From Liolophura sinensis (Eukaryota > Mollusca > Polyplacophora > Chitonida > Chitonidae), in assembly GCF_032854445.1 (NCBI RefSeq), contig NC_088295.1:13193385-13257384 (forward strand): a stretch of DNA of 64,000 nt, written 5' to 3'. The first letter of the stretch is position 1; every line of letters starts with the position of its first letter. Both the position numbers and the translations under genes were made by a program. The notes beneath the pieces are model-generated. The model worked only from the letters and a program-made list of their open reading frames with translations. It ran no database searches and was not told the DNA's origin. Positions 3,001 to 63,412 of this stretch are shown piece by piece.

Positions 3001-6000
3001 TTTAACCATATGTACGTGGAATATGAGTGACACAGCATCATGTTTCTGGTTAGTCTAACATGGCATGTCCCATGGCCTCATAAGAATTCCTCTTAAAAGT
3101 TCCTTTATAGAGCTACAGAGCACATGAGAAAAAATGTCTCTGACTGTTTTAATAGGTCTATTTTCACCCCTCTTCTTAAATAACGCAGTTTATATTATTT
3201 ATTGTGTTTTGTCTTTTAATTGTCCAGGGTAATTTTAAGGATGTTCAAGAGCTGAGCTAAGTATTTAATCAATACAAAGAAACACATCAAAGCCTTCTAG
3301 GTTTATTTCCAATCATATAAGCAAACGAACATGGATGATACATGTACCACATGGTGAACTTGTTGTATGAGCTCTATATGTTTTTATACCGTTTGTGCTA
3401 GTAGAAATTTTACTTCATACAGCATAGTGAAAGAAGAGTTACAAATATGTTACAATGAAAAGAAAATATGCATGAAGAGAATTAAGACATGCATGTACAT
3501 GTGTACAATGTATGCTTTTACAGTTACCACAGATTCAGACTCTGCTGTCATCAGAGTTGAATTGCTGGAAATATGAATCTTTAAATGTCATTCTCTTGAG
3601 AGTAAATAAGAATTTGTTTTTCTCAGTAATAGTTAGGATCACCACATGCAACTTTTTTGTTGATATCTAGCTATGCAGAAAGGATCTGCACCTGTCAGTC
3701 ACCTAAATTTACACATTTTAATGGTCAAGATGATTTAATGCTTTGTGTGTTTTAAATGTTTCTGCCTTCTCTGTTAACAGGAAGATGCTGAAAGACTTCT
3801 GAAAAACTGTAAAAGATACGACTTGCTGAATCAGTTTTATCAGAACATGGGGCAGTGGGGCAAGGTATGAACTTCGCTCTTGGTATATTTTGGTTTTGAG
3901 CACTTATCAGATGTCATTTGCAGGTGACAGATATTTATTTGTTCCTAGTTGTTTACCGAGATCACAGTGTAATGTTGAGCATGCCTTTCTCTTGTGTCTA
4001 TTACAGGCCATGGAGACAGCAGAGATGTATGATCGTATACACCTGAGATCCACCTATTATAATTACGCTAAACACCTGGAGGCTAAAGGGGATGTTAATC
4101 AAGCGGTGCCCAAGTAAGGCAGCCTTAGGCTAGGATAGTGATTATGAGTTGGGTTTTACCCCAAGGCTAATGGATGTCATCTTGTCGAGGCAACTGTCCT
4201 ATTTATGAACATTTCTGGCCATGCATTGCTGCCATTACTCTCTCTCTCTCTCTCTCTTTCTCTGTCTCTGTCTCTCTCTTCTGTCCCAGTTTCCTCCCAC
4301 CATAATGCTAGACGCCATTGTATAAGTGAAATATTCTTGAATACAGCGTAAAACACCAATCAAATAAATAAATAAATTTCTCTCTTCTGATGAATTTGAA
4401 ATATGACTTGTACAAACAGGGGAAGCCTCTCAAGATATCTCATTTTTGCCTTATATTATGATGCTTTGTAACCAAAATGCATGGAAAACTGAATATGAGG
4501 TTTAAATTACATGTAAGATAATATGATTAATATAAGTAATATGAAATACATATCTTAAAATAAATATACATGTAGTTATACATACCAGTCTTTTTGACTT
4601 TCCAGCTACGAGAAATCTGACACCCACCGCTTTGAAGTTCCCCGCATGCTATTTGATGAGCCCGATGCTTTAGAAGCTTACATCATGAAGAGCAGAGACA
4701 TGTGAGTGCATGTAAAATCAGCATACATGGACATAAAGTAGTCAAATCTACAGCCATATGTAACATACCTGACTCTTTATTGAAGTACAAGTCTATAAGA
4801 TTACAAGAGTAATCTTACAAGATTATATATGTCATAAACCTTTGGGGAGGGCTAGGCCATCACCAGGCTCAATACTTCAGAACGGTTTTTCACAACAGGT
4901 TTTTTACTATACATTAACTACAATATATATGTATATGTAATACTGGCATTTTTGAAGCTTATATGGTAATTTGCAGTTTGATCAGATATGTAATCTTCAA
5001 TAATGGTAATGTAGATGTACTTGCATACATGTTTATATGCTTGTCCTCTGTATGTACTTCAGGAGTTTACGGAAGTGGTGGGCCCAGTACCTGGAGAGTA
5101 CAGGGGACATGGATGCTGCTTTGCAGTTCTATGAGGCAGCTCAAGATTACCTATCCCTGGTCCGCGTCTACTGTTACTGTGGCAGTATGGATAAGGTCAG
5201 ACATCCACTGATCATAACGTTTGTGATTACTACAATACTGCTTGCTGTATTTTCCAAGATGAGGTTAATAACCAGTTTTCATGAAACATACCACTTTGTC
5301 ATATCTTGTAGCAGTATATATATGTATATAAATTAAGATGGGCTACAAAGATTACATATGATCTGACAATGATATACTTGTAACCTTTGCTTATGGTTTT
5401 GCAGTTTGTACAACACCAACATTTATATAATCAATGGTTATTACAGATATAAAGGTGTATTGTGATGTTTCCAGGCTTCTGACATCTGTAACGAGACTGG
5501 AGATAAGGCTGCCTGTTATCATCTGGCTCGGCAGTTTGAGAATCAGGATCTTATCAAAGAGGCCATCCATTTCTTCACTAGGGCTCAGGCCTACGGAAAT
5601 GCTATACGGCTATGTATGGTAAGTTCATTAATGTCTGGCTTTGAGCAAGGAATTTCTACATTCCCCAGGTCACCTTTTTCTTCATGCTCAGTTGGCAAAT
5701 AACAGTTGATGGCATTTTTCATTTGTTCCACCATTAAGTAAGGTATATCAGCCTAAAACAGGAGAGGATGGTGATCCTCCACCCTTGGCCACCGTTGGCC
5801 ACCATATTTCCCATGAGTTTCCCATTTTAATACGGTCAAATAAATGAATACTATATCTTTGTATAAACAGCCATGGAAAATATAATCTTCCTCACATGCA
5901 CTGGTGTAGAATCAACAATAAGGCTGACCTATTTCTGATGGCTTCAGTTGTGAAAGTGTTGTAATTAATGTCGTAAATAGATTCACATAATACAAGATGA

Positions 6001-9000
6001 TGTTCCCAGAATGTTATCTTCCTCTCCCTGACCTTTGTAGGAACATGGCTTTGAGGATCAGATCCTGAACCTGGCTCTCCTTGGCAGGCCGGACGACATG
6101 ATGGATGCAGCCAGGTACTTTGAACAGAGGCCTGGCATGCAAGACAAAGCAGTCATGTTATTTCATAAGGTATGGCTGTTTGTGTAGTAAATATATGTAC
6201 ATGTCTTGAGTTTATCTCCTGGAGCAGCAGTAGTAGTAGTCATAGGTTTCTTTCTTAAAATTTTATTGCTCTCCTTTACATAATAATTTACATCATAAAA
6301 CACAGAGCAGAAAATTCTAAAAATTTCAGATTTTGAGCATACTGTTCAAAATTCCATTGTTAATAGGCCTTACTTATCTGTTTCGTCTTTTCAGGCTGGG
6401 AACTTTGCTAAGGCTCTTGACCTGGCCTTCACTAGCAAACAGTTTGGGGCTCTGCAGATGATATCTGCTGATCTTGACGAGCACGCTGATCCAGCCTTGT
6501 TACAGCGCTGTGCTGATTTCTTCCTGGACAATGGCCAGTATGACAAGGCTGTGGACCTGCTGGGGCTGGGTAAAAAGGTGAGGCAGGGCTAAGCTGGTCA
6601 ACTCAGTTTGTGTCAACCCTTATCTGACTAGCAATAATGTCTGTCGTCCGCCACGTACAAATGTATACATAAAGATATCTCATGCTGCCAAATAGCTATC
6701 CTAATGCTGGGATGTTTTCTGGTGATATGAGACAATCCACTGTGAGAGTACAGAAGTGTTTGGTGCTGGCCATTTCGGAAGGTAACTGAATTTGCGTTGG
6801 ATTGCCTGATATACTCAGATTGTAAGATTTTTTCTTGGTGGGTCATATCCAGGTTGTTATGGTTATGTTCATGCTCAAGATTTTACAGGGTTTGAGTCTC
6901 ATTCTTGACCCACACAGATGTGATTTGGAGGTAGATGTGTCTGTTGCTGTTTTAGTACTGGGATGCTCTGAAGATCTGTATGGAGCAGCATGTGATCATG
7001 ACAGAGGAGTTAGCTGAGCGGATGACCCCAGAAAAGGGAGACGGAGAGAATGATGTGCTGGAGAGGAACAAGATACTGGAGGGGATAGCTGAGGTCAGCA
7101 TGCACCAGGGACAGTATCACATCGCTACCAAGAAGTTCACTCAGGCAGGAAACAAACTCAAGGTCAGCTTCATCTGTAATATCTGTGATTTTCCAGCTGT
7201 TGTGGATTTTCACTTTACTTTCAGCTTTTCTAATCTGAGTAATTACCTAGAATTTTTTACAAAATATATATGCATTTAGGCAGACCAGACTATTGCTATT
7301 CAGTAACATTAACGTTTATGTATGTATTTATTTTTTATTTATTTTGTATTTATTTATTCGATTGGTGTTTTGCACCAAATAATGTTTCACTTATGCAGTG
7401 GCTACCAGGTGCAACATACTGAGCAGAGCCTGTGGAGGTTGGGTGGGGTGGGGGGAACCACAGCTATCTGCAGGTTACTTACATTAATGTAGTAATAGAT
7501 TTGTCATTATGAAATATTGCCAAAGTGTATAGCCTAAACATTCATTCATCCAAGGGTCAAATGTATTAATACCTTTAGATTTTAACATAAACATATACAT
7601 CCTTACTCCCACACCTCTCTTCCCAAAGCATATGATATTAATGTCACAGTTGTTCTGTTTGGGTGTACCTGTATTTATGTTTTCAGGCTATGAAGGCATT
7701 GTTGAAGTCTGGCGATACAGAGAAGATAGTTTTCTTTGCTGGTGTTTCCAGACAGAAGGAAATCTATGTGATGGCAGCAAATTACCTCCAGTCATTGGAC
7801 TGGCGAAAAGACTCTGAGATCATGAAAAATATTATTCAGTTCTACACCAAAGGCCGAGCTCTGGACTCTTTAGCTGGATTCTATGATGCCTGTGCAATGG
7901 TAATAAATATAGGATGAATCACACACAGTATGCTGTCTTTTTTGTCCATTTTCTGCTGTATGATTGATTTCCATAAAAAAAAAAAAAACAGGAAACTACT
8001 CATCCTTGGTAGTAACACTTCCTTCCTTAGCTGGTTTATCTTCTGTAAATGACCCTATTTGTACTGTTTCAGGTGGAAATAGATGAATACCAAAACTATG
8101 AGAAAGCCCTGGGGGCTTTGGGGGAGGCTTACAAGTGTATGAGTAAAGCCAAGATGGCCAATGAGTCACTCCAGGAGGAAAAATTAGGCATCATTAAACA
8201 CAAACTGACTCTCATCAAGAAATTTGCTATGGCAAGAAGGTGAGGCATATCTTTAGTACTCTGCCTTGACAAATGACCATGAGAGTTATCTGACAGTTTA
8301 TAATTCTGCACTGTACGGCTGTTGTCCTGTCTTCTCTGCTGATAGAAGTTTTCAATAAGTCACTTACTGTTACACATGTATGTATACCTTACTCTCATCA
8401 CCCTGGGTGTTTAGGTTTTATAATGTTTAGCTTCATTGTCTTCAGCATTGAGGGAAATATTTTGAAAAGTTTGTATCGCATTTGTCTTGATGGTGTGTAA
8501 AATTTGCCTCTTATTGTGCACTACTGTATTCTGTGATGCTTCATTTCCTGATTCCTTCATTCCCTGGCTGTCCTCAGGTCATATGAGGAGGATTCTGAGG
8601 AGTCTGTACGTCAGTGTCAGGTCCTCCTTGAGGAGCCAGGAGTTGAGTCCGCTGTCCGTATTGGAGATCTTATAGGCTTCATTGTTGAACACTTTGCCAG
8701 GAAGGAGAAGTGGAAAGTGGTGTGTAACTGACTTCATCTATTATTGTGTACCATCTGAACATTAAAATGTAGTCTTCCCAATTAGTATGTGTGGATGAAA
8801 GACCATATGGAAGTGATTTTGTGTAATCAGCCTTGTAAAACATAATTCATGTTGATACTTTGGTTTTCTATTTGAAAAAAAACTCAAGCTGTGCACCAGT
8901 TATCCTGCGCAAAGAATATTTATTTGCTTGATGTTTAATTTTGTACTCGAGCATTTTTCACCTACATGAAAGTCAAGTTCAGTCAGATATTTGTATAAAG

Positions 9001-9654
9001 GAACAGGAGTGCTCAAAGTAGACTAGCTAAAACACACAACCTCGTTGTTCATAGGCCTGATAGTGCTTAATATCTGTGTGAGGGCACCTCATAAAGAATG
9101 TTGCTGAGCACACAAGTACAAATGTAACTGTTTAAGAAAGTGTGTATTGAGTGCATCGATGCTTGCTGGTGTTATTCATAATAATGAAATCAAGGCGATC
9201 AATGCTTAAATGTAACAAAGGTTTCACAAGCCTTTGATCCACATGCCGGGATCATTATCAAGTGACTAACCACATTATTTCCTAAATTTGGCTAGTTTCT
9301 TGAGGTCCACTAGTAGTCTGCGAAATCCTTGTCCATAGGAATGAATTATTACAGCTAAAGACTCATAGTGGTCCTGTTATTATTACTGAACCCACGTACA
9401 AGTATGAGTCTAGCAGTATATGATGTTATTCATGTTATACATTTCAGGCCTACAACTACATTGAGGAGCTGAGAATGAAAATGCCATCTGCAAATTTGTC
9501 CTATTACGTGGACATGAGAACAATAGAAGCCATATACCGTGCCTTAGATCTGCCGCTGGGTAGTATCATGAATAACAACAAGCTCAATGGTTACCGAGGC
9601 TCACCTGAGGAGGATGGAGAAGAGGTGGAGGAGGAGGTTGTGGAGGAACAGTAA
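1..9654 (+). CDS. IFT140: Intraflagellar transport protein 140 (IFT-A subunit), C-terminal half, 15 exons, 5' end outside the window
   Basis: Exons: 1-124, 1782-2011, 2272-2449, 3781-3864, 4007-4113, 4606-4701, 5063-5195, 5475-5618, 6041-6169, 6395-6577, 6956-7162, 7687-7899, 8073-8239, 8578-8719 and 9448-9654. All junctions are GT-AG, and the joined frame is open for about 780 codons to TAA at 9652. The product aligns along its length with the C-terminal half of animal IFT140. Examples are [69 protein letters not shown] and [23 protein letters not shown]140 belongs to the IFT-A complex, which drives retrograde transport and import of membrane proteins in cilia. The N-terminal WD40 propellers lie upstream of the window; this part is the TPR-like helical solenoid. 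The protein ends in an acidic tail, [11 protein letters not shown], much like the acidic end of vertebrate IFT140. Several introns carry SINE fragments (4281-4377, 7321-7440). No frameshift or missing block is apparent. Confidence 0.97.
4237..4280 (+). repeat. (TC)n microsatellite abutting a SINE fragment
   Basis: An interrupted CT/TC run lies in an IFT140 intron and leads directly into the 3' part of a SINE-A copy at 4281. Expansion may have started inside the SINE body. Confidence 0.85.
4281..4377 (+). mobile_element. SINE-A, 3' fragment
   Basis: The fragment carries the family hallmarks TTTCCTCCCACCATAATGCT, then AAATATTCTTGA, then AAACACCAATCAAATAAATA with an AAAT tail. The tRNA-like head is missing. 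It lies in an IFT140 intron in the sense direction. Confidence 0.85.
7321..7440 (-). mobile_element. SINE-A, degenerate minus-strand fragment
   Basis: A TTTATTTATT tail is followed by GATTGGTGTTTTGC and a diverged AATGTTTCACTTATGCAG, the reverse of the family 3' module. Divergence is strong, so this is an old copy. It sits in an IFT140 intron. Confidence 0.6.
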
Positions 9655-11540
9655 GTGGGAGGAGCGCAAACAAATGGGTGTTGTCATGACCCAACATGAA
9701 GCAGCATTAACACTGGGTAAAGGTCACAACACTGTATCACCAATCACTGCTTTTCCAGATTTACCAGTTGTCTGTGATGTCTAGTGAAGCTTGTTACAAC
9801 AGCCAGACTGGATTCAGAGAGAGCAGAAATACTCCCAGGAATGCAAGACCATAACATAAAATGTGATTTTCGGGACTTGTTTGTAGTGAGGCTGTGCTTA
9901 CTCTTATCTGTTTTCGCAAGTCAGACAGACTTGAGCATAAACACATGCAAATGTTTGAGAAACTCTGCATGGAGTTTATTTATTTACATGCTTCTTAAGA
10001 AGGAAATGAACATTTGGGAACTAAGGTAATATGGGTTAATACAGCATAATTATACAATTATTTTATTCCAATGAATCACAGTCAAATAAGTATATTTGTG
10101 ACATTTATGTGTATGTATCTCTCAGTCTTGTATCACACATTTACACAGGTACAGGGTCACAGGTAGCACTATCTCCAACACAGATCACATCAAGTGTGTT
10201 TTCAGTGTGATTTTTGTGATGATAAAATTCCATGTGTGATTTATTAGCATAGTATTTTTTGCCGAGTATGTGTAGTTACATTTACTTTACAGTCCAAGAA
10301 AACGTGACATTGATATTTGTCAGATGTTTTTGAATCTCGGTTCTAAGTGTTCAGTTTCCTATATTTCCAGGTGAATATTCTGCTGAAACATTCCACTACA
10401 TCCGTCACACAGCATCCAGTGTTCATAAAACTTACTAACCAATAGAATCTGCATGTTTTTGTATGACACTTTTTCTAGGACCTTATCACCATGATAGGCA
10501 CTATTACTCAAACCATTTTTCACCTGTGCAGATTTTACCTGTTGCAACATGTTTACATTTAACTCCGTCCAAAGGTTACAACAGCAAAAACTTCACCCGA
10601 CGATGTCTGTGTGTTACTTGAATCTCTCATCTTGAGTGTATAATGTATGTGGGTGAATGTACATATTAGCAATCTAGTTTTGTCATTCCTTACGTGAACA
10701 CGTCCAGTCTAACTGAACTTCCATATGTGATTCTGAATCTATTATATATACAAGCATAAATATAATCAAATATATACATAATGCATGGATACATAATACA
10801 TATACAATCTGCATTCAATCTAATCTGTCTTCTTGTGGTTACCCTAAATTGCCTGTAAAGAGTACAGCAGTAAGGATAGAATTTACGTTAAAAAGCTACA
10901 TGTACTAGTGTGGGCCTGCAGGGCAAGTCCAGAAGGCATAATGTCTAATCCCTAAGTTTGGTCACAAAAATCCAGATGTGATAAAAATCATCTCATTCAT
11001 TTGTTAATTTAGGTTGTAATATTTGTACCTTGCATCATACTCCTTGTTCTATGTAAAGACTGAACCGGGTGTCCCTTTTTTAAACAGTTTTTTTTTCTAT
11101 AACATCTGTATTTCTTGCCTACTTGAGTGATCGGAAGGCTTCTCATTTACAGCAACAGTCCATGTGAATCCACAAAATACATGTACTTTTATTGTGAAGT
11201 ATTTTTTAAGTTTAAAAGTATAAAATTACAAATACGTATAACTTTCTGGACGTACCCTAACTTTTTAATCATGTTCTGTATGAAACCGTCCATGAATGAC
11301 TGATGTGCTGTTTTACAAAACTTTATTATGTATTGATGACCTGCAATTTGTCATAATCACGGAAGACAATATAAGGATTGTATGTTTGTTAGTTTGTAAC
11401 ATGATGGTTGTTTCTCTCTTTCGTATTGATGACGTATATGTGTACATTGAATCCATATATCCCGTCCCAGACTTGCGCTTCTTTCAGACCGTCCCTATTT
11501 AACAAGTTGTTATTTGACAATAAAATGCCACAGGCAGATC
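9655..11540 (+). other. IFT140 3' untranslated region and flank
   Basis: The stretch after the IFT140 stop has no coding signal. It is AT-rich with stops in all frames. The first good polyadenylation hexamer with a downstream GT/T-rich stretch that I noticed is AATAAA at 11519-11524, which would imply a 3' UTR of about 1.9 kb. A nearer, weaker variant signal could also be used, so the transcript end is an inference. Confidence 0.4.
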
Positions 11541-37309: not shown

Positions 37310-38220
37310 ATCACATCCTATCCTATATTTCTGCAGTTACAACAAGTTATAGATGCTTACAGGAAAGCTTCATCTACATGTATTTCTCTGGTAAACTTCA
37401 GCAGTTACATCCAGGTACTGAATTTTACAGGAAGCCTTCATCCTCGTGCACTTCTATCGTACACTTCTGAAGATACAGATGCCTTGAGGAAACCGTCATC
37501 CACACGTATTTCAGTTCTGTACTTCCACAGTTAAATCCAGGTGCTAGAGCTTACAGGAAACCTTCATCCGCATGAGGTTCTATCCTACATTTCTGAAGTT
37601 ACAACAATGATTGGAAGCTTACAGGAAACCTTCATCCGCATGAGGTTTTATCCTAAACTTCTGCATGCAGTTACACCAAGTTACAGATGCTTTGAGGAGA
37701 CTTTCATCCACATGTATTTTTATCTTATACTTCTGCAGTTACACCCAGGAACTGAAGCTTAGAGAAAACCTTCATCTCCATGTATATCTATCCTACATTT
37801 CCACAGTTACATCCAGGTACTGAAACTTACAAAAAAACTATTATACGCATGCACTTCTATAACTTCTGCACTTTAGGCCCATACTGTTGCTCACTGGAAA
37901 CTGATACGCATTCCTTACAAAACTTCAGTTTCTTCTGGATAGCAGGGGAGGAAATATATCACGCACACTTCAGTTTTTCACATGTGTATGCAGTTACTTA
38001 TCGGTACTGAATGCAGGAAACCTTACATTTCTATCCTATCACATTTTCAGTCGCTACTTGCTGGCATTGAAGCTAAAGGGAAACAGTCTGAAGGCCTCTT
38101 TCCATTACATTGTGCGCAATTACTCCTCGGTACTAAAGCTGAGAGACCATGCGCAACATGTACGTCCATCACACATTTAAATCTGCAATTAATTAATGGC
38201 ACTGAAACTATACACTAAGG
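37310..38220. repeat. ~65-68 bp degenerate minisatellite
   Basis: Units contain CTTACAGGAAACCTTCATCC, then GCATG-type, CTATCCTACA and TTCTGCAGTTACA in order. Adjacent units at 37551 and 37619 are 68 bp apart and nearly identical; others have drifted. About a dozen units can be followed, with one more relative near 38590-38660 beyond the inserted SINE. Confidence 0.8.
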
Positions 38221-39714: not shown

Positions 39715-40025
39715 GAAAAGGACACAGGTAAGTCTTGGACGAAAACCTGGAAGGCCTGGACAGAAAACTGGAAGTCTTGGACTGAAATATGGAAGGCCTG
39801 GACTAAAAACCGTATGTGGACATAAACCTTTGAGCCTTGGTCTGAAACCTGGAGGTTTTGTACTGATACCTGGAAAATGTTGGCTTGGACTGAAACCTGG
39901 AAGCGTTGGACAGAAACCTGAAAGGCTTGGACTAAAACCTGGAAGCGTGGGCACACACCTGAAATGCTTGGACAGAATCCTGAAAGGCCTGGACAGAAAC
40001 CTTGAAAGCTTGAATGAAAACCACT
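39715..40025. repeat. 21-bp minisatellite with open frames on both strands
   Basis: About fourteen tandem units near GAAACCTGGAAGGCTTGGACT occur; most are 21 bp, with a few of 19-22 bp and one of 27 bp. Because 21 is a multiple of three, the array stays open in several frames and encodes 7-residue repeats on either strand (minus-strand FQVSVQ-type units, 39612-40046). No start context or splice structure supports a protein. Confidence 0.9.
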
Positions 40026-49134: not shown

Positions 49135-52100
49135 ATGTCCTTGCTTTGTAGTTGGGGTCAGTCCACAGATGGTCAGCTGGGACTGGGTGGCATTGATGAT
49201 GACCGCATCTCCTGTCCCAGGGAAGTGACATTGTTGAGCAAATGTAACATCAAGGATGTTAGTTGCGGGAACAAACACACAGTTATTGTGTCCAAAGATG
49301 GAGTGGTGTATACATGTGGGAATAATGATGCTGGCCAACTGGGTCACGACAAATCAAGGAAAAAACCAGGTTTGAATAAATAAACCTTTTTGGTAGAAGC
49401 AAGAACTTATTTCATGGTATTTCCAGTATATTATGCCTCATAGAAAAATTATTATTTGTTAAATAAAAGGAAAGGAAGAGCTATTTTGACTATGACTTAC
49501 ACATGACTTATGTGTAACTTACACATGACTTACATTGATATTTCATGCAGTTTTGAATGGTGAGTTACTTTGCTTTTGTCTGTGCTGTTCACGCCCCCCA
49601 TTTTTATCAAGTTTAGAATAATAGGTGTTGTGTATTCTGCTATTTTGCCCTTTTAGAACAGGTGTTATCTTTAGAAGCTTGCCATATAAACCAAGTATCA
49701 GCAGGTGGAAATCATAATCTAGTTGTGAATTCAAGTGGAGAGGTATACAGCTGGGGAGATAACTCAGGTGGGCAGCTTGGACATGGAGATATACAAGGTG
49801 ATTTACACAGGACCCCCAGGTAATTTTACAAGATGGATGGTCATGTTTGCTTATTGTTAAGATAATAATGTAACCACTAGTCACAGGACTCACAGACAAA
49901 GAAGTACAATAAAAGTTATATCCTCCAATTTCAATTGGTGTAATAAATTGGCCTTTTATTTGACTTTAAACTTACTGTCACATTCATACTCTTAATTTTA
50001 ATTTTTGAACAACTCTGTTGAGTGGATTTTGGAACAGTCTTTTTGCACGTGTTATGTAAAAGTACTTTATTGTTGTATGTTTGTTCTGCCAACAGGTTGG
50101 TGAAGGCTCTGAGTGGTCAAAAAGTGATACAGGTGTCTTGTGGAGAATGCCACTCTCTGGTACTCACAAATGGTAGGATCTTTACAACATTGGTACAACA
50201 TTTACCTTTAAGCACTCAAACACTCACTAATTATATGTCTATAACATCATTGGTAAATGTACATGGGCTAGTGGATAAAATCCTTGTCTATCAATTTCTC
50301 GTAAACATGAGGCGCAGGTTCAGGGAATTTATGGATTCCTCAATTCTCACAGTTTGTGAGGGCTTTGTGTCAATCAGTGGTCAACACACACGCACAGTTG
50401 TTGGTTGAGTCTAACATTTGTTAACGCCACTTGTCTTTCACCATTATGTTGTGCACATCTGTCAGTCACATAGGGCAGAGTGTCGTTAACTTCCAAAGGT
50501 CAGTGGTTTGCCCTGGGCACTCCAGTTTTCCCCACCCATCTTGGTTGATGTGCTTAGTATGCCAGCGTGGCGCAGTGAGCCTCTCACCAATACAGTCGCT
50601 GTGAGTTAAAGTCATGTTTATACTGGCTTTCTCTCAAGCTGTATGTTAAAAGGCCTGCCATTAACCTGCAGATGGTCAGGGTTTACCCTGGGGGTCAGTC
50701 TGGTTTCCTCCTACAATGCTGGCCAGCGCCGTATAAATGAAATATTCTTGAGTACTGCATAAAACACCAGATAAATAAATATTGCTGTGCATAATAATTC
50801 TTCCCTGAAATAAAAGCGGTGATGTTTATGGGTGGAGGAAAATGGAATGTCCAGAGTAAGCCACCCCACTTCACGAGGTACCAGCTAAACCTCACAACCT
50901 ACAGTCACTGTTGAAACAGCTAGAGTTGAAATCATGTCTGTTCCCTTCTTGGTCAGCTACGACGAAAACAGTATGCTTCAGCAAAATGTATTGGCAAAGG
51001 CCTTGAATAAATATAACCAAGTACATGTGCATTTTGCTTTTCAGACAGCAGGGTGTTTACTTGGGGAAGCAACAGCTTTGGTCAGTTAGGAATAGGGAAG
51101 AACAGAAGTGGTCAAAAGTCACCTCAGCTGCTGGACTGTTTGAAAGGGATTCCCATGCGGATGATTACAGCTGGCGCCAATCATTCCTGTGTATTGTCCT
51201 TGTCTGGAGCGCTCTTTGTTTGGGGGAAAAACTCGTATGTACTCACAATTATATTCTTATATAGAGGTTTGGATTTTTTAAATTGATAGTTAGGTGAAAT
51301 CAAGAGCATTGTACTCTACAGACTACTACTTTTTAATATGCAACAGTACAACTTGACTCACAGTTATCTTGGAAGTGTTCATTTTTAATGTTCATTATCC
51401 TTAAAGGGAGTCCTGGTTTATGTTGCCTTGTTCCCAAATAACAGAAAGAGCCAGTAGTGTGGTGATTGATAGCATTTCCCATAGTAAGTAGTACTGGATG
51501 TGATGACATTGTTGGGCTTTGTACACATACATGTAGACGTACTAACAGGCTTGTGTCTCTTCTGTGTAGGTTTGGGCAGCTGGGAGTGAATGATCAAAAA
51601 GGTAAAGAAAGTTTATAGATGAACCTATTTTATAGTTTTATCAATATCCTCTGCTAATCTTGTAACGTGATACAAGTTTGGAAATTCATTCAGATGTATG
51701 AGTCCTTTATTTCTGACAGTTCAGAATATAGGGTGCATGGGTACACATAACTGCCCAACCAGCTTTTAGCCACTTCACTCCAAAAAGTTTATTGGTGCTG
51801 CTTTTTTTCAGTTGTCAGTGCACTAACGTACCCAATATTGTTTTTTCTGATTCAAACCCTGCATGAAATACAAGTTCAAATGTATCCACAATTCCATACA
51901 AATATTTTGGGGATCTACTTGCAGAGCTTAGAATCAGTTGGGCTTGAGCCAGTGCGGCAACCTACTATGATTTACATCCTTTGTTTTGGGTTTGGTGAAT
52001 AGCAGCCTTTTTATTACTCTAAGAGATCTAATATGTACAGAGTACTGTCTAAAAAGATAAGATAACAATGTTTTCTTGATACTCGTTTTTCCAATCTTGG

Positions 52101-55100
52101 CATAATTGCTGTTTCTAATTGCATACTCTTTCGCTCCAATCTTCTTTTTTGGAGATAAATTTCATTGCTATGGGCTATTTTGACCCCTTTCTAACCTCTG
52201 AACCTTCACTTGTGTGCCGAACACTAGGATGTCTACTAAATTAATAATTCAATTATCCAAACCTCTGTTTCTGCCAGAAAAACATCATCTGACAGACTTT
52301 TTGTGGTTGGTGATATTTATTTTGCCTTGCTCTGAGTGTGACATTTGTTTGTGAAGTACATCAACAACAACAATGCATGTACGCACACGTTTTATTTCTG
52401 TGCAGGCTTTATCAATATACAACGCTTTACAGAGTACCAGTAGTCCTGCAGGTCATATCTCACTACATGATGCAATTTTTACAGGGTACACTATAGTACC
52501 CACGCAAACATGTGCATTGAGCAAAAGACAGTAGATACTGTCAAAAGCCTTGACTTCTAGTTTATGTTGCATCTTTTGAATAATTTCTTTAAAGCAGTAT
52601 AAATTGTAGTTGAACTTTGCCCAAATCTATTTGCCTTGTTTGTCTGAGAAGGCAATAAACATTGAGTGTTGTTGAAAATTTCTAGCTTCCTCCACTGTCT
52701 GTGTTTATGACATTGCAAAGGTATAAAACAAATTCTAGGCATGTGTGTTATTTTTTCTCCAAATTTCAGACCGTCACTTTCCTACACTATGCAAATCCCT
52801 ACGAAGCCTAAAAGTGATGTATGTGGCTTGCGGGGGTGATCATACTGCAGTTCTCTCAGAGGCAAGATGCTTTGTTCATATATTTGTGTGATTTCTCAAC
52901 TCATATATATTTTGAGAGAATATTTCATCCAGATCGTGAAATAATCATAATTTTTGATGTTTTGTGGTTGGCCTGATTTCTCTTGTCATATCTACATTTA
53001 CATGTTACTGTAATGTCACACAGTAGACATCATCTTCAATGATGTACACAAATGACTCAATCAGAACACATTTATTATAACCAAGAATTTTACTTGCACA
53101 ACGACAGTCAGTTTTATGTGTTTAGGAAATCAGTGCCCACTGTGAACCACCTACTTTTGGCTTACTGACAAACATTCCAACTTGTGACCCACGATTTGTG
53201 CAACATATAAACACTGTGCAAAACAACCCATGAACTTCATTGACCACTTATTGTCACCATGACCTCACTTTATATGATCTACTGACTGAAAGGTAAGCAC
53301 CTCTAACTATGAGACCTTGCTACCCATTCAATTATGACTGCTTAATGCATAATGGTTTTGCTATATGTATGTTCTTAAAATCACTGGACAGGTCCATTAT
53401 GTATGGATTTAAAGAGTAGCTTCTTAATATTTTTTTGTTTTGCAATATGCACTATTTTCTTAATAATGACTAGCAGAGGACATCACCAAAATCTGATTGG
53501 TGAAATTTTGTGCATTATTAGGCTTAATCTTCCTCTGCTATAAGCTGTTTGGTAGATCCCACCAGGTTGAACTCATGGGTAAAGGTACATGTAAATTCAC
53601 AGGGATGATAAGATTGACAGAGATTACGTAGAATGTTCTGTGTGCAGTTGTGAAATGGCAAGATGTTTGATTGTTCAAAAAATAATCATGAATCCAGATC
53701 ATTGACACAAAGACAGATTTATGTAGACATTAATGTGTTGCCATGCCATGTTATCTGTGTATTTGTGACTGAAAGAAACTGGGATAAACACATCCGTACT
53801 GATACATGACGCTTATAAGAGCACATGCATGTAGATATCATCAGTGTTGAAGTGGTTTTGTTACAGGATGGAGGTGTTTTTACATTTGGTGCTGGCATGT
53901 ATGGACAACTGGGCCATGGCTCACAGAATACAGAGTTTCTGCCCAAAAAGGTGTTGGAGTTGATGGGTAGTATAGTGACACAGATAGCATGTGGAAGGTA
54001 AGATAAACAACAGAAAGTGGCCAGCAGACAGCTTATGGGTGGTTAGATAAACATTCACACAGATAGCCTGTGGAAGGTAATATAAGAGCAGAAAGTGGCC
54101 ATGCAGATAGCTTATGGGCAGTGAGATAAACAGTCACATAGATAAACTGTGGAAGGTAAGATAACCAGCAGAAAGTGGCTACACATAGCTTATGGGCAGT
54201 TAGATAATCATTCACACAGATAACGTGTGGAAGGTAAGTTGACCAGCAGAAAGTGGCCACACAGATAGCATATGGAGGGTCAAATAAACATTCACACAGA
54301 TAACCAGCAGAATGTGGCCACACAGATAGCATATGGAGGGTCAAATAAACATTCACACAGATAACCAGCAGAAAGTGGCCACACAGATAGCATATGGAGG
54401 GTCAAATAAACATTCACACAGATAACCAGCAGAATGTGGCCACACAGATAGCATATGGAGGGTCAAATAAACATTCACACAGATAACCAGCAGAAAGTGG
54501 CCACACAGATAGCGTATGGAAGGTTAAATAAACATTCACACAAATAACTTGTGGAAGGTAAGATAACCAGCAGAAAGTGGCCACACAGATAGCTTATGGG
54601 CAGTTAGATGAGCAACAGAAATTTGTCACTTAAAAGAGCCCTTGGAAGGTATGATAAATAGTAGAAGTGATTAGACAACTTGTGGCTGTGAAAGGTAATA
54701 TAAAGAGTTACACAGATAGCCTGTTGAAGTTAAACAGCAGAAATTGGTCACACATAGAGCTTTTAGAAAGTTAGATAAACAGCAGGAAGTGGTTTGTCAT
54801 CTATTCAATACTGCACAAGGTTATCAGAAGAGCATGATTTTTTGGCATGTTCATGAATACCTCTAGTATAATGTTGATTTTATTATGATAATATGTGTAT
54901 ACTGATGTATTTCTCTTGTACATCATGCCTTTTACCAGTATTCCACAAACCCTACCCCTGTGACAGTCGAAATACTTCCCATCTCAGAGCATTATAAGGA
55001 CACTCACAAAGTACTTCTTAATGAAAAAATCTAAAAAAGTCTAAAGTATGCACTGCTAAATATACATGCATTTTTCTCTGCCACAGATGCCACACCCTAG

Positions 55101-58100
55101 CCTTTGTATTAGGCAGTGGAAAAATCTACTCTTTTGGCCTGGGGGGTAACGGACAGCTAGGTTTGGGGGACACAGCCAACCGTAGTGTCCCATCAGCCAT
55201 TAAAGCTCAGTTTGAGAATAACTCTATGGCAGGACGATCAGCTGACAGCGTTGTTTGGGTGGAGAAGATCTTTGCTGGTGGTGACCAGTGTTTCTGTCAG
55301 GTGTCATGGTCTCAGGTAAGAGCAATTCATGGACAAGTATGTGTGGTCAGAGACCACCTCCTGATTAGGATGATGTTTGACTGGGTCTGCCTCCAAGATG
55401 TTATAAACAGTGTATATTATGTAATTCAGTACATAGGAACAGCAACATTTCAATTTTGGTAAAAATTGTTTGCCAATAGGCTTTTATAAGATTTTTGAAA
55501 ATTTTCATTGTGAAAACAATTTATTAAAAGTAGAATTGTCCATTGCAGTATTATATGGATAATAGAGCAGTTTTTTGCTCATGTTGACAGTCAGATGAAT
55601 AAACAATTGTCACTTTAATGTCATGACAGAAACTCTAATGGAAATAAGATTTGAGCAAATTATACACTGTCCAGATTTGTCAATTTCTGGCCAGACATAA
55701 GCTCCAAATTGCATACGCATTTGCAAATTCATGGCATAAGGTATTGCTCTGGTAACTTAAAGATAACTTTCAGTTTCAGATCAAGCACCTTTGCAGTTGA
55801 CTAAACTAAAACAAGTGGACTGTTTTGTATTTGCAGCCTGTTTGCCCGGAAGATTTCCGTGTGCTGAAGGAGGATAGGAGAATTCTTCACTTGTCAGATC
55901 AGATAGTGGATAGAATATGCGAATTAAGTGTTGATGATAGACCTCCAGCAGAACTGTCAGAGTAAGTTTGATCAAGATGAAACTTCTGTCATTACTTTTA
56001 CTTGAATGTATGCCAATTAATGACCTTATGGATAAACCTGTGTGTTTATACAAGTGTTTGTCAGGTGGTCTGTATGGTAAAAATGCTATGGTGGATTTAT
56101 TGATTGGTGTTTAATGCCACGCTCAAAAATTTTTCACTTAAAAAATGTGGGTCAGACTTATGAGATATGATGGTGGGGCCGCCACTTGAAGTAAACCACC
56201 AAATCTTGTTTGGTTCCTGACAAACCTCTAGACTTAATGCCTTGTTGTGATGGAAGAATCAGAACATTCAAATGCTCTTACACTGTTCCCATATTTCTTG
56301 CAGAAAATGTGAGATGTTATTTGGTTCAGCGTCTTGCCTTAACTCTTCATTCCTGATGAGGTAGGGGCCAGTTTGTAAATTTTTGTTATATACACTTTCG
56401 TCTCGAGGAAATGGATGAAATAATATTCGACCTGTGAATTTGCTTGTGTATGGTTAATTGGTGGATGGGACACAAGTATGAATAATCCATTCTGTATGTA
56501 CATTGTTCCATTTTGAAAACTTACTTTTCATGTAACAACTTGTATAGAAGACAAGAAATGACCAGTTGATGTTACACTATATTCAGTACAGTGGTAATCT
56601 TTTAGATGAGTGCTGTCATTACAGGGAGAACAAACACTTTAGAGCCAGCAGCAAGAATCATGGTGTAGATCTGGAATCTGCCAAGTGTCTGCTTCAGAGA
56701 CTGGGAGAAATGAAAAATAAAATATTATCACACATTGTAAGTGTTGACATATAAGTATAATAGATTGCAAATGATTCAGTGGTGACCAATTTCTTTTTCC
56801 TTTAGAACATGAGTGAGTACTTGGGCTTTAACGTCGTGCTCAACAATTTTTCAGTCATATGACGACCAAGGAATCCTTAGGGTGTATGTATTGTACAGGA
56901 CGGATTTCCACCGCTCTTTTATTTAGTGCTGCTTCACTGAGACAACTTACCGAAGGCAAGTAAGCCGCCCCGCCCGAGCCATTATACTGATACGGGTCAA
57001 TCAGTTGTTGCACTATCCCCTTCATGCTGATCGCCAAGCGAGGAAGTTACAACTTCCTCTTTTAAAGTCTTAGGTGTGACTCGATCAAGGATTGATCCTG
57101 GATCTACCGGTCCCGAAGCGGACCCTTTAGAACATGGTTTAATATGTTGTTCTTAACATAACATGCCAACTTGATGTATTTACTCTATTAGTTGATTAGC
57201 TGAAAACTTCACATGTCCTTGAAAGATGTCTACAGTTAATACTTTTTATTTAATGATTACAAGTTACAGAATAAATATACTTTGAACTAATTTGCCAAAC
57301 ATGATGTATTGCTAAGACTTTACTTTCACATTTGTTTCAGATAAATACACATTTTCATGTATTTTGTTTGATGGAATTGTATTTTTGGTATGTTACATTC
57401 ATCTGGCTTTATTTGTGTTAGTAATACAAGTGCTATGTTCTGTTATATGACTTAGATCTGCGGGACCTTGGAGAGTAAGTTGTTGAGGGAGTTACCGTCT
57501 TCTCCGCCTGATGTGGAGGCTCTCAGACTCTACCTGTTCCTTCCTCTTTGCCATCTCTTTGACAACCCTAGACACTACAGGACCATTATCTGCCCATTTG
57601 GAGAATCCATCATCAAACTGGATAAATCAGCATCCAAAATAATAGGTTAATTATCAGCCTTTGATGTTCCAAACATGTTTTCGAGCAAACAGTTTTTGCA
57701 TCTTGTTGTCAAATTGATACATTGATACAAAATGATGAAATACAATTTTGTGATGTCTTTGTAGATCTTTGGTGGTCTTCTCAGAAGGCAGAAGAAATCA
57801 ACAGGCTAGTGTATGTAAGTACCAGTAGGCTCATATCTTTAGTTGCTCATTCTTAGATAAAATTAATCAATACATCCTTTTGGAAATGTTTGTAGCATTA
57901 AAGATTCAATTAAACATACAATTTTATCACTTTATAAAGTGAATAATTCTGTACATGTACATATATATAAGTTGATGAATTTCCCTCGAATCGTGAAACT
58001 GTCTTAGACTTCAACCAGATTTAGTCTTAACTTTACAAGAGTTTACTGTACAATATTTTCTAAGAGTTCTTAGTCTTCTTGACAACAGTGAAAATTAGCA

Positions 58101-61100
58101 TCAAAGTTCAAAAATAACAGCATGAGATAATACTAAGTCTGACTTCAGTCTAAGACACTTTTCTGATCTTGGGGCCAGAAATCTATCAACATTAATTAGT
58201 ACCTTGGTCTGTAGACTTGTTTGTTATTGAAGATATCATGGCAAGGTAATTGACTATATTTTTCTTAATTTCAGATCTACAAGCAAGTGGTGGTGTACAT
58301 ACTGAACTTACCCTCTCCAACAGACCAGAATGATGTAAGTAACATGGCGGCCTCACACATGGTAGAAGCATGGTACAGTGAATGTTTATTTGGGTCTCAT
58401 TTAAATCCAAATGTTATATTAACTGAGTGTGTTGATAACAAGCTCTTTTTGTACATGTACATGTAGTGTGCTCCAAAAGTTTACCAGCATTTCGAACTGA
58501 TGAACTAATTATGGAAGGTTTCCTAATTCTAGATAATAGTGAATGTACAATGTAACCTTTAGGCCATATGCATTGTGTACATAGAGAATGGTTAATTCAC
58601 TGGACATGCTGGAAGCACAACTGTGGGTGCTACACACAGTTCATGGCAGCAACATGACACAAGAAACTGGCATATGAACTATCAGTTGTTTCAATTTATA
58701 AAAAACCTAATTCTTAACAAATAGAATTGTCTTTTTTGATGTATACATTCAGTTAAATTTTTGTGATTGGACAGTGATAAAATTTTCTGAATTTAAGTTA
58801 TAATGAATGTAAATACAACTCTCAAAGACAGTTCTTCTGTTTATTGTTTCCTCAGGTCATGGGCCGACAGCGTTGTTTACATACTTCTATGGAGGTGCTC
58901 AAGAAACTTAACTCTGTAAGAAGCAAATCTCCCAGCCATTATAATACATTCTACACAGAAGCCACTGTTAAGTGGTACCTTGAAGTGTGAAAATGTTTTT
59001 ACTCTATTAAGGCTTATTGTTATGATGTCTGATTTGAGAAACTGGTTATACTATACGAAATATACACAATGTGATTCAGTAAAATACAAGCAAAGGAATG
59101 CATCTTGTCATGAGCAATACACAATACTCATATAAGTCAATGTGTTTATTGTTTAGGTGAATGAGATGAATGGCCAGATCATTCCATACCATCGCTTCTA
59201 CATAGCGGAGCTCACAGAAAAAGTCAACATCAAAGCAGATTATGTGAACTGGGTACAGGTCAATAGCTCTTCTAATCCTGTAAGTGTTGTCTCATTGGGG
59301 TTTGATCATTTGTAACAATCCAATTTGTTGTACTGGTAAAAATAATTTAAGTACTGCTCTGTGCTTAGTGAATTCCACTGTGTCATTCCCTCTTAATTGA
59401 AACAAACAGTTTTCTTTTTACATGTCATTGGTACCTTACTAGGATAAGTGTACATCAGTCATAACTGTAGCTATTACATCCTGTCGTTTTACTTTTTATT
59501 TCACCAATTCTCATTCTGACACAATCTTTTCAAATAGAATGTAGGAAGTCCATATTTTAATTTAAGAATAGTTGTATTTGAACAGCTACATTATATCTGT
59601 GGACATTGATGATGTACTCTTGCTGAGCTTGTGTGACAGGAGAGGTTGTTTTCCTTTGTAGGGACTGTTGTCCTTCTGTAACTACGCTTTTGTGTTTGAT
59701 GCAAAGGCTAAGACTATGCTCCTTCAAACAGATGCTGTTATGCAGATGCAGGTAATACATGACTAGGGCATGTGCTGATTTTAAGCGTATCTTCATCAAA
59801 GGATTATGAACAGTGAGAGTTCGTTTCTCTTCAGACATGTTTTCACATTTAAAGAATTAAATTAATCAAGGAAATAATCATTATCCATTCATCTGGTTGA
59901 AAATATTAAGAAAAAGAAAGCGATTGAAATGGAAACATAAGACATTTGAGTTTGATTTACATTTGTACTTTTTTTATTTTAAATTTATTTTATTTATTTG
60001 TTAGGTATTCAAGATCATTTTAAATCTGACATTGAAATGATATTGATTTCTGATTTGGCTTTAGTTTGCTATAGATGAAGTGTACCGCCGTAACATCTCC
60101 AGTATGTTGATGCATTTGGCACCTGTTAACCCTCTGAACCCTTGCCTCATCCTCTGTGTGTCTCGGAACAACCTTGTACAGGACACCATCCTACAGCTCA
60201 GCAAACAGGGGGCCGCAGACTTCAAGAAACCACTCAAAGTTAATGTCATTTTAGTAGTTGTACATCACTTCACTGTAAAAAAGTGCAAAATTGAATTGTT
60301 GCAAGCCTTTTGGGCATTTGCTTATTTAACTGAATAACACAATACATTAGCGTTAGGAATCTAGAAACCCAATCTCAAGTGGCAGCACCTTAAATTGAGT
60401 AATCTGTTGTGCTGACTTCTCTTTCAGCGTTACGGGATAAGCCAAGAACTTGACGACCTGGTCAGGAAATGCTGTGACTGGGTTGATCTTCATATCTGTT
60501 GTCTTCTACATAACCTTCCAGTTAGACAGCACTAAAACTATGTGTTTGTGCCTTAGATGTGTTCTTTTCGGGGTATAAAGGTTAAAATGAAATTTACTGT
60601 ATTACAAACATTTAACTGTATGGGTATTCAGGATATTTAAAAATTCACTTGTACACAGAAGTGCTGGTCTATATTTTGCAGACAGTATATAGTACAGTAT
60701 AAAGCTAGCACCAAATTTTCATGAACAAGCACATACAGCAGTGGCTGTAGATGTAGATATGGTGTTAGGCTGAATGGCACCAGTCTGTGTTTCAGGTGTT
60801 AATCCAAGGAGAAGAGGCTATTGATGCTGGTGGTGTCAAAAAGGTAACAGGTTTCTTGATCTGTCTTCCTAAAATTGATTTGACAGAGCTTCCTGTTGTG
60901 ATTTCAGGTGTACTTTTTAGGGGAAGAAGCTGTGGACGAAGGAGGAGTTAAAAAGGTTATAATCTTTCAGAGAAAATGCAAATACATGTATTTCGCCCGG
61001 TTTGTTCTTCTGTGTTTTGTGTGTTGTTGGAAAATAACATGCATGAGAACTCAGTTTCTTACATGTATCTGGTACTAAACTCCATCTTTAATAATCATCC

Positions 61101-63412
61101 TGTTGTCCGCTTGATTCACTTGTCTACCTCCCTCACATCCTCTCTTTATTTGATTTCTGAATTAATCTTCCAATCATATTTGAATATTGTGCTGGTTATC
61201 TGAGGTGGATGTGTTATCTGTGTTGCACCTGTGAAACCTGTGTTTTTGAGCTAGACAGTTTGTGGTGGGGTGATTGGGGAAGCATGCGGCCAATCAGAGT
61301 AGCAGATTTGTAGGTCCAAAATGTTGACACTAAGTGTAATTCTTCTTGTCTTATTTCTGAGATAATTTGTCTTTCTTTGGAATATACTGTTGAGTGATGC
61401 AAGTGCTGTTATTAATTGAAATGAATGTACATTTACTTGTATAAACTGTTTTGATGATGAATTTTGATTTTATGGTTTGCTCTAGGAATTTTTCCTGCTG
61501 ATACTACGAGAGGTGTTGGACCCAAAATATGGAATGTTTAAGTACCATGAAGAATCAAGGCGAATTTGGTTCCAAAAAGAGGTATAATTACTTTATCCAT
61601 CTGTTATCTATGCCTTGTTAAAATTTTCCCAATTTGTCCATTTCTATGCTGCTTTCTGTGATTAGCTTTATCATTGCCATTAGTTAAAGTTTGTTATGTT
61701 TTTTCATGTTTTGACAGACCTTTGAGGAGGAGGGTATGTTCCACCTAATAGGTGTACTCTGTGGACTTGCCATTTACAATTCCATAATCATAGACATTCA
61801 CTTCCCTCTGGCTCTCTACAAGAAGATCCTCAACAGGTGATTAACATATTGCTAAAAAGTGCAGGTAACTGCCAGGTCATACAAAACACACGCTAAGACA
61901 TGTCAGAAATACTTACATTGCCCTGCACAATAAATAATCTTGCACTTCATTGAACTTGTATTTTGAAGGCTCGCTGTGAGGTCCAAAATGGTCGAGGTCT
62001 CATCAGGGTTATAGCTGTATTCTATTGTTGATGTCCAAAACTCTAGAAAGAAAGATGTCCATACTTTATGTTTATTGTGTGTTATCATCTTTGTACAACT
62101 TTATAGTTACATGTATGTGTGAAGTAACAGTTTTGTCCAAGCGGACACTCTGCTACTTTTTACTATTTCTTTTTGTGGCCATTTGCTATTCAAGCAGAAG
62201 AACCAGGATCATGAACTGATCAGCCTTCTGTCAGTATACTGTGTCTGGGTGGGGAGCGATATCCTGTGTTTTCAGCATGGTGTTCCAGGGGTGCAGCGCT
62301 ATAAAAATGCTGGTGTTGTGACTGGCCTGTGACAAGGAGACACTGAAATGTTTATGAAAGTGACATTAAAGCAAACAGACAATTTAAACTTTGCCGCTTC
62401 CACTTTAATATTCATCTTCATTTTGTTTTCCTTGTAGTTGAAGATCACTTCATGTTCAAAGGTTTATTTGATATATTTTTGTTTATCCAGACCTGTGACA
62501 TTAGATGATCTCAAGGATTTGATGCCATCAGTTGGGAGGTAGAATATCTAGATTTTGTATCATGTCCTGGAATGCCAGTAGAGCTGTAGCGAGATAAAAG
62601 TAACATTGCCCATGTCGACAAGCAGTCTCTTATAATAATGTTTGTATTAGTCCATTTTTGTGTAAGATTACTGAGATGCTCCATGTATCGTTTTTAACAA
62701 ACATTTCTATTTGAAACCTGTTTGACCTTGACGACTGGTATTAGTTTTTTTTTTTTTTTTTTTACTATACATTATAGGATCTGGTCTTGTTCTCACTTAC
62801 ATTCTTATATTTTGGTTATGTCTCAGGAGTTTACAGTGCATTCTGGACTATGAAGGAGATGACTTTGAAGAACTGTTTGATCTCACCTTTGAGGTAAAGA
62901 TATGGAATGTTTCACCTTATTTTGGGTGTCCTGAGTATTTGAAACTTATTTAATACAGCATGTTTACATTTAACTATCGTTTGTGTGTAAACCTGAAAAT
63001 AAATTATCTTCTATTTTTGAGTCTAAAGTGTTATCTCTGAGCATGAGAATTAAAATGTATACTTTTGTCAACATGAAATCCAGTCCACTTACTTCAAAAT
63101 TTAAAACAGTTCAGGATTACTCTGTCAAGGTAAAAATACCTGTTTTTTGGATAAATTTTCATGTAAAGGATAATTCGTGAAATTGTATTCATGATATATG
63201 TAAATTGAAGCGGTTTCAAGTCGTGCTTTGCTGTTTTTCACATCCTTTTCATAATAATCTTTTTAAAGCAGCATCACTGTATATTACATGGGATTTAACA
63301 CATTACAATAAGCTCTGATATGGTTATAGGTGAGTGAGGACTACTTTGGTGAGCTGAGAAGTGTGGAGTTATCACATGAAGGGAAGACTAGACAGGTGAC
63401 CAAGGAAAACCG
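49135..63412 (+). CDS. HERC4: HERC4-like E3 ubiquitin ligase (RCC1 repeats + HECT), 3' end outside the window
   Basis: Exons: 49135-49369, 49657-49819, 50096-50172, 51045-51234, 51570-51601, 52770-52861, 53867-53997, 55087-55315, 55837-55961, 56304-56360, 56625-56736, 57456-57645, 57765-57814, 58275-58334, 58856-58915, 59157-59279, 59662-59751, 60065-60238, one of 60796-60843/60908-60955, 61486-61581, 61718-61836, 62491-62538, 62827-62893, 63330-63412. They give ~883 codons in continuous phase. An in-frame TAG at 49111-49113 precedes the ATG. Residues ~1-370 are RCC1-type repeats (WGQSTDGQLGLGG, TCGNNDAGQLGHDKSRKKPG, FTFGAGMYGQLGHGS, SFGLGGNGQLGLGDT). A linker follows, then the HECT N-lobe from ~residue 690 (KKPLK, GEEAxDxGGVKK, EFFLLILREVLDPKYGMF, FHLIGVLCGLAIYN). 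The ligase takes ubiquitin from an E2 onto a C-lobe cysteine; that lobe lies beyond the right edge. Residue order matches vertebrate HERC4 throughout, though HERC3 is a close paralogue family. Confidence 0.95.
50540..50780 (+). mobile_element. SINE-A, plus strand, old full-length copy
   Basis: The remains of the tRNA-like head (GCCAGCGTGGCGCAGTGAGC, CGCTGTGAGTTAAAGTC) lead into the body, GGTTTCCTCCTACAATGCTG, the 3' module AAATATTCTTGAGTACTGCA and an ATAAAT tail. It lies in a HERC4 intron. A family-D-like segment in reverse orientation precedes it at about 50470-50530. Confidence 0.8.
52859..52870 (+). other. HERC4: Non-canonical GC donor (GC-AG intron 52862-53866)
   Basis: The exon ends CTC TCA GAG and the intron starts GCAAGATGC. 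The frame and the conserved next residues DGGVFTFG (from 53867, after TTACAG) demand this junction, and no usable GT donor lies nearby. AG followed by GCAAG fits the stronger consensus typical of GC-AG introns. Confidence 0.85.
53085..53335 (-). repeat. Family-D dispersed repeat
   Basis: GTGAACCACCTACTTTTGGC, TTACTGACAAACATTCCAAC and downstream text correspond in order to the copy at 46672-46935. It lies in the GC-AG intron of HERC4. Confidence 0.5.
53985..54790 (+). repeat. ~60-bp minisatellite derived from an exon end and its donor
   Basis: The repeat starts in the last ~13 bases of the exon ending 53997 (CACAGATAGCATGTGGAAG, then GTAAGATAA). It recurs through the next intron as CACAGATAGC, TGTGGAAGGTAA-type and AGCAGAAAGTGGCCACACAG segments. 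A homogeneous core at 54250-54520 has nearly identical 60-61 bp units. Several units keep an intact donor-like GGAAGGTAAG (about 54069, 54150, 54229, 54549). Confidence 0.9.
56096..56290 (-). repeat. Family-D dispersed repeat
   Basis: TTTATTGATTGGTGTTTAAT followed by GCCACGCTCAAAAATTTTTC, then GAAGTAAACCACCAAATCTT and CCTGACAAACCTCTAGAC. The first part is again related to the shared SINE 3' module. It lies in a HERC4 intron. Confidence 0.55.
56812..57123 (-). mobile_element. SINE-B, young copy with 13-bp target-site duplication
   Basis: CCTTTAGAACATG occurs at 56799-56811 and again at 57124-57136. The body is nearly identical to the copy at 32503-32848, including TACAACTTCCTCTTTTAAAG and TCGATCAAGGATTGATCCTG. 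It lacks the outer end of the tRNA-like head and has a short internal gap. It lies in a HERC4 intron. Confidence 0.9.
60428..60535 (+). other. Candidate alternative terminal exon of HERC4
   Basis: After a good acceptor (TTCTCTTTCAG) a phase-0 frame of 35 codons runs to TAA at 60533: RYGISQELDDLVRKCCDWVD, then LHICCLLHNLPVRQH. The block is GC-richer and more codon-like than the intron around it and has no internal donor. Joined to exon 60065-60238 it would truncate the ligase inside the N-lobe. I see no polyadenylation signal close by, and a frame this long can arise by chance. Confidence 0.25.
60796..60843 (+). other. HERC4: HERC4 HECT exon, copy a (probable mutually exclusive exon)
   Basis: It is bounded by TGTTTCAG and GTAACA, is 48 nt long, starts and ends in phase 0, and encodes VLIQGEEAIDAGGVKK. 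This is the conserved HECT N-lobe segment joining KKPLK upstream to EFFLLILREV downstream. It differs from copy b at five of 16 residues. Confidence 0.85.
60908..60955 (+). other. HERC4: HERC4 HECT exon, copy b (probable mutually exclusive exon)
   Basis: It is bounded by GTGATTTCAG and GTTATA, is 48 nt long, phase 0, and encodes VYFLGEEAVDEGGVKK. It is closer than copy a to vertebrate HERC4 in the hydrophobic start and in GEEAVD. The 64-bp gap to copy a is too short for easy splicing of one copy to the other. Including both would insert 16 residues without a frameshift. Confidence 0.85.

Follow-up and report, generated by a model that had tools for sequence, protein, structure and literature searches.

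A tandem pair of 48-nt exons in the HECT region of a HERC-type ubiquitin ligase gene of Liolophura sinensis: likely mutually exclusive splicing

The HERC-type gene and its exon pair

The window, a stretch of 64,000 nucleotides of Liolophura sinensis contig NC_088295.1, carries a HERC-type gene on the + strand from about 49.1 kb on, in which RCC1 repeats are followed by a HECT domain that runs past the window end (Table 1). Pfam RCC1 matched all four exon pieces tested from this gene, and Pfam HECT matched with 331.1 bits over positions 2-305 of the 306 in the profile, nearly its full length. Five more exons past the window end finish the HECT domain, the last one with the stop codon. The domain is complete; its C-lobe holds ...VAHTCFNLLDLPRY...FGIV-stop with the C-terminus intact, and the VAHTCFNLLDLPRY stretch is presumably the catalytic cysteine motif. 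This order, with the HECT domain C-terminal to the RCC1 repeats, is shared by small HERC ligases of the HERC3/HERC4 type and suggests that the gene encodes a ligase of this type. It departs from the small HERC ligases in carrying one N-lobe exon in two versions.

Table 1. Features of the HERC-type gene, in positions of the window
Feature	Position	Strand	Remarks
RCC1-repeat exons, same gene as exon pair	approx. span 49135..55320	+	Pfam RCC1
Shared upstream exon, FAIDEVYRR...KKPLK	60065..60238	+	3' end phase 0; donor AAA/GTTAAT
Exon A, VLIQGEEAIDAGGVKK	60796..60843	+	48 nt, phase 0, AG/GT borders
Intron between exons A and B	60844..60907	+	64 nt; shortest of 19 delimited
Exon B, VYFLGEEAVDEGGVKK	60908..60955	+	48 nt, phase 0, AG/GT borders
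Shared downstream exon, EFFLLILREVLDPKYGMFKYHEESRRIWFQKE	61486..61581	+	5' end phase 0; Pfam HECT match starts here
HECT exon, TFEEEGMFHLIGVLCGLAIYN...	61718..61836	+	
HECT exon, about PVTLDDLKDLMPSVGR	62491..62538	+	48 nt
HECT exon	62827..62893	+	
HECT exon	63330..63412	+	

Other features accompany the gene in the window. Tandem repeat arrays with units of about 61, 78 and 158 nt lie inside the HERC gene span at 53974-54548, the 61-nt unit with 96% matches. Exons of an IFT140 homologue occupy about 1700-9700 on the + strand, and the Pfam IF140 C-terminal TPR family matched one of two pieces tested. At 37523-37860 and 39730-40019, stretches with open frames contain degenerate repeats in tandem, with units of 68 and 21/42 nt.

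The original prediction described two adjacent exons in this gene, and its coordinates, lengths, translations, AG/GT borders, phase 0 and 64-nt intron were all borne out on the sequence. The acceptors of exons A and B both read TTTCAG and the donors are both GT. The shared flanking exons fit phase 0, and no stop arises with either A or B. The two copies are identical at 32 of 48 nucleotides and 11 of 16 amino acids. Their BLOSUM62 score against each other is 55. No other 16-mer in a six-frame reading of the window scored above 22 with A or 23 with B, and 100 mononucleotide-shuffled windows, searched with exon A only, reached 33 at most. The six-frame 16-mer scan found no third copy of the exon within the window. 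The likeness at the DNA level spans TTTCAG, the exon and GT and ends at the exon borders; the adjoining 60-nt intron stretches of A and B are identical at 22/60 and 25/60 positions. A search of the genome (609 Mb, 632 contigs) with 401 bases around the exon pair found one place only, which speaks against a haplotype duplicate, that is, two alleles kept apart in the assembly. Use of an AG at 60783, which precedes the exon A acceptor by 12 nt, would lengthen exon A in frame by SVFQ.

Comparison of the copies gave a pS of 0.84 (9 of 10.7 synonymous sites differ) and a pN of 0.19 (7 of 37.3 replacement sites), coarse estimates from 16 codons only. Synonymous sites are thus saturated and replacement sites are not, which points to an old duplication and to constraint on the pair ever since. 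Both exons are free of stops and keep their splice borders. These results support an ancient tandem duplication of the 48-nt exon whose copies are constrained as a pair, and the earlier claim that both copies are intact, free of stops and apparently under selection holds in this form.

Copy number of the segment in HECT domains

The segment encoded by the exon pair had also been predicted to be required once per HECT domain, and comparisons with solved structures and with other HECT genes of the same genome agree. With the same flanks, a phmmer comparison against PDB sequences scored 154.2 bits to E6AP (1c4z) with one copy (B), 136.5 with both and 117.2 with neither; the double form therefore loses about 18 bits relative to the single form. 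All 57 PDB sequences match the one-copy protein as a single stretch here, with alignments printed for the five E6AP rows. Phmmer against the PDB was used instead of Pfam HECT, which was rejected as a discriminator of isoforms: its match starts after the exon pair, and the four isoforms scored 110.5-110.7 bits. Changes of G545 and E550 in UBE3A are reported as loss of function (PMC8635412). By count on the E6AP alignment less 23, G545 is the first G of the GG in the 48-nt exon, and E550 is the first residue of the exon downstream of the pair.

The search for paralogues gave at least 13 matches in the genome, 4 of them to the present gene and 9 elsewhere. Loci of about 3.1 kb were taken for eight of the nine, which by place represent six genes (L004 with L008, L009 with L012, L007, L010, L013 and L014); the ninth match (C7:9937962, E 0.163) was left out of the paralogue control. 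The segment occurs once in all six genes, of which about 3 kb each was seen, so that a copy farther off would be missed. In every one of these genes the segment itself scored 84-91 and the second-best match to it no more than 19. The structure and genome comparisons together support a requirement of the HECT N-lobe for a single copy of the segment.

In the six sampled genes, GG runs into a REF/KEF/REW-type motif without an intron. Because these genes hold the segment once and lack an intron there, the present gene stands alone among the HECT genes sampled in having a second copy and an exon border following KK. The border before V is not peculiar, as L013 has a likely acceptor, TTTATAG, at the same place. 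No retrocopy showing one isoform was present among the 13 genome matches listed. Viral and prokaryote contigs, searched for relatives with one protein query each, gave 4 and 24 pattern matches, none of which was confirmed.

The short intron and the choice between copies

Mutually exclusive splicing of A and B is the best reading of the pair and is likely, with a probability of roughly 0.75. The shared donor at 60238 would be joined to A or to B, and either would then be joined to 61486. The 64-nt intron between the copies would not leave the spliceosome enough room to join A to B; the remaining 18 of the 19 delimited introns in this part of the gene are 119-2219 nt long. Candidate branch points by motif are located at 60859, 60872, 60878 and 60883, which are 16, 29, 35 and 40 nt from the exon A donor; TTGAC at 60883 has the most favourable place, with the acceptor 24 nt farther on. 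Since this predicts a branch point no more than about 40 nt from the exon A donor, joining of A to B would be sterically blocked. Steric exclusion by the short intron would provide a concrete mechanism, which the original prediction did not name.

Short introns are common in Drosophila, which counts against a steric block. In human extracts a minimum of about 50 nt between donor and branch point is required, and assembly is abolished at 35 nt (PMC6692369). Also against a block, Smu1 and RED are reported to aid the splicing of short introns (PMC6692369), and human introns shorter than 66 nt, and one of 56 nt, are spliced in some cases (PMC4463651, PMC8363638). The model presumes, by analogy, that the human limit of about 50 nt carries over to the present animal.

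Other means of enforcing or regulating the choice were considered. Double inclusion and skipping of both exons each stay in frame, with no stop in the double form, so frameshift-triggered decay cannot enforce the choice. Competing RNA pairing between introns did not exceed that of shuffled sequence, as 8 (upstream with middle), 36 (middle with downstream) and 38 (upstream with downstream) of 100 dinucleotide shuffles equalled or exceeded the real value. Four exon-intron pairings were likewise equalled or exceeded by 24 to 86 of 100 dinucleotide shuffles. Of 19 donors scored by leave-one-out, the shared one at 60238 is the weakest, at 1.27 compared to 3.83-9.04 for the others. A donor this weak would leave room for regulation; it fits regulated use and proves nothing. 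The exon B donor, GTTATA, departs from the consensus and has a score of 5.36, inside the range of the other donors.

A reading in which splicing relies on one copy and rarely or never includes the other, a silent relict, is unlikely. The isoleucine of copy A at position 3, where copy B, E6AP and four readable HECT genes of the genome have phenylalanine, would suit a relict, as would the non-consensus donor of copy B. However, an unused copy of such age should have decayed, whereas the pair, saturated at synonymous sites, differs at only 7 of 37.3 replacement sites, with no stop and no lost border.

The two in-frame alternatives carry even less weight. Regulated skipping of both exons would yield a dead ligase, so that the pair would act as an on/off switch in addition to offering a choice; the absence of both exons would keep the frame, and the shared donor is the weakest of 19. 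Nevertheless, skipping alone leaves the upkeep of two diverged copies unexplained, and it is considered very improbable. Joining of A and B in one transcript, with 16 extra residues in the N-lobe, has hardly any probability: the product would be in frame and free of stops, but the 64-nt intron has branch candidates no more than 40 nt from the donor, the double form scores 136.5 rather than 154.2 bits against 1c4z, and the match of each of the 57 PDB sequences to the one-copy protein runs through this place unbroken.

Two versions of an N-lobe element

Exclusive use of A and B would generate two enzyme versions from one gene, five residues apart. The copies differ at positions 2, 3, 4, 9 and 11, with LIQ in A against YFL in B, I against V, and A against E directly before GG. 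The LIQ/YFL and A/E differences had been recognized previously; the count of four had not included the I/V difference at position 9. At position 3, phenylalanine is found in copy B, in E6AP and in four of four readable HECT genes (L004/L008, L009, L010 and L013), and isoleucine in copy A; L007 and L014 were excluded from this count because the letters before their segments look like an intron and acceptor. At position 11, copy B has glutamate, as do E6AP and the E6AP homologue in the genome, and copy A has alanine, as does the gene at L007. Because copy B agrees at positions 3 and 11 with E6AP and other HECT genes, it is the more usual version at this strand, and copy A the more divergent one. 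In the full comparison against the PDB, the one-copy scores to E6AP were 163.5 bits for B and 159.7 for A. The PDB HECT rows are split: E6AP, SMURF and RSP5 favour B, and WWP1, WWP2, TOM1 and AREL1 favour A. The solved PDB structures matched included no HERC3/4 HECT domain and no vertebrate HERC.

The A/E position was considered as the ubiquitin-exosite tyrosine of NEDD4 and dropped. The NEDD4-type exosite residue is placed at E6AP I564 (PMC6463701), and the position equivalent to I564 falls, by count, in the next exon (KYGMF). Since this residue lies outside the exon pair, a switch of ubiquitin binding seems less likely than tuning of stability or rate. The two versions may differ in how stability, rate or partner contacts are tuned, and not in catalytic chemistry. 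A more tentative proposal, to which we give somewhat less than even odds, is that steric exclusive splicing switches the N-lobe between two tuned versions, giving two ligases that differ in rate or specificity by tissue. If true, a HECT enzyme would be regulated at its core rather than via its substrate-binding domains.

The pair is real, old and well preserved, and represents a known kind of exon pair in an unusual protein, within an enzyme core. OGDH 4a/4b and alpha-tropomyosin likewise have adjacent homologous exons for one protein segment. The human OGDH pair is reported to use branch points 25-41 nt from the donor for exclusion (PMC7969005), and the candidates found here are likewise under about 50 nt. 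Unlike those pairs, the present one falls within a ubiquitin ligase's catalytic domain, and the branch point and exclusive use of the pair are predicted. Potential steric interference of the short donor-branch kind is reported for 57 human clusters (9%) (PMC5740500), and ion channels and other membrane proteins are described as over-represented among human duplicated-exon choices (PMC9741552). HERC, HECT and ubiquitin are absent from the main text of these two human exon-pair catalogues, and no report of an exon pair of this kind in a HECT gene was found in open-licence PubMed Central. With such a pair in its core, a ubiquitin ligase would supply two naturally occurring forms of a HECT N-lobe element that selection has already tested, and a direct means of finding out what the element tunes.

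Human HERC4 is likewise reported to vary in splicing within the HECT region, with exon 23 skipped in breast cancer (PMC7536242). The human event is a skip and not a choice, and by the primers printed in that source it lies farther downstream, corresponding to about 61718-62538 here.
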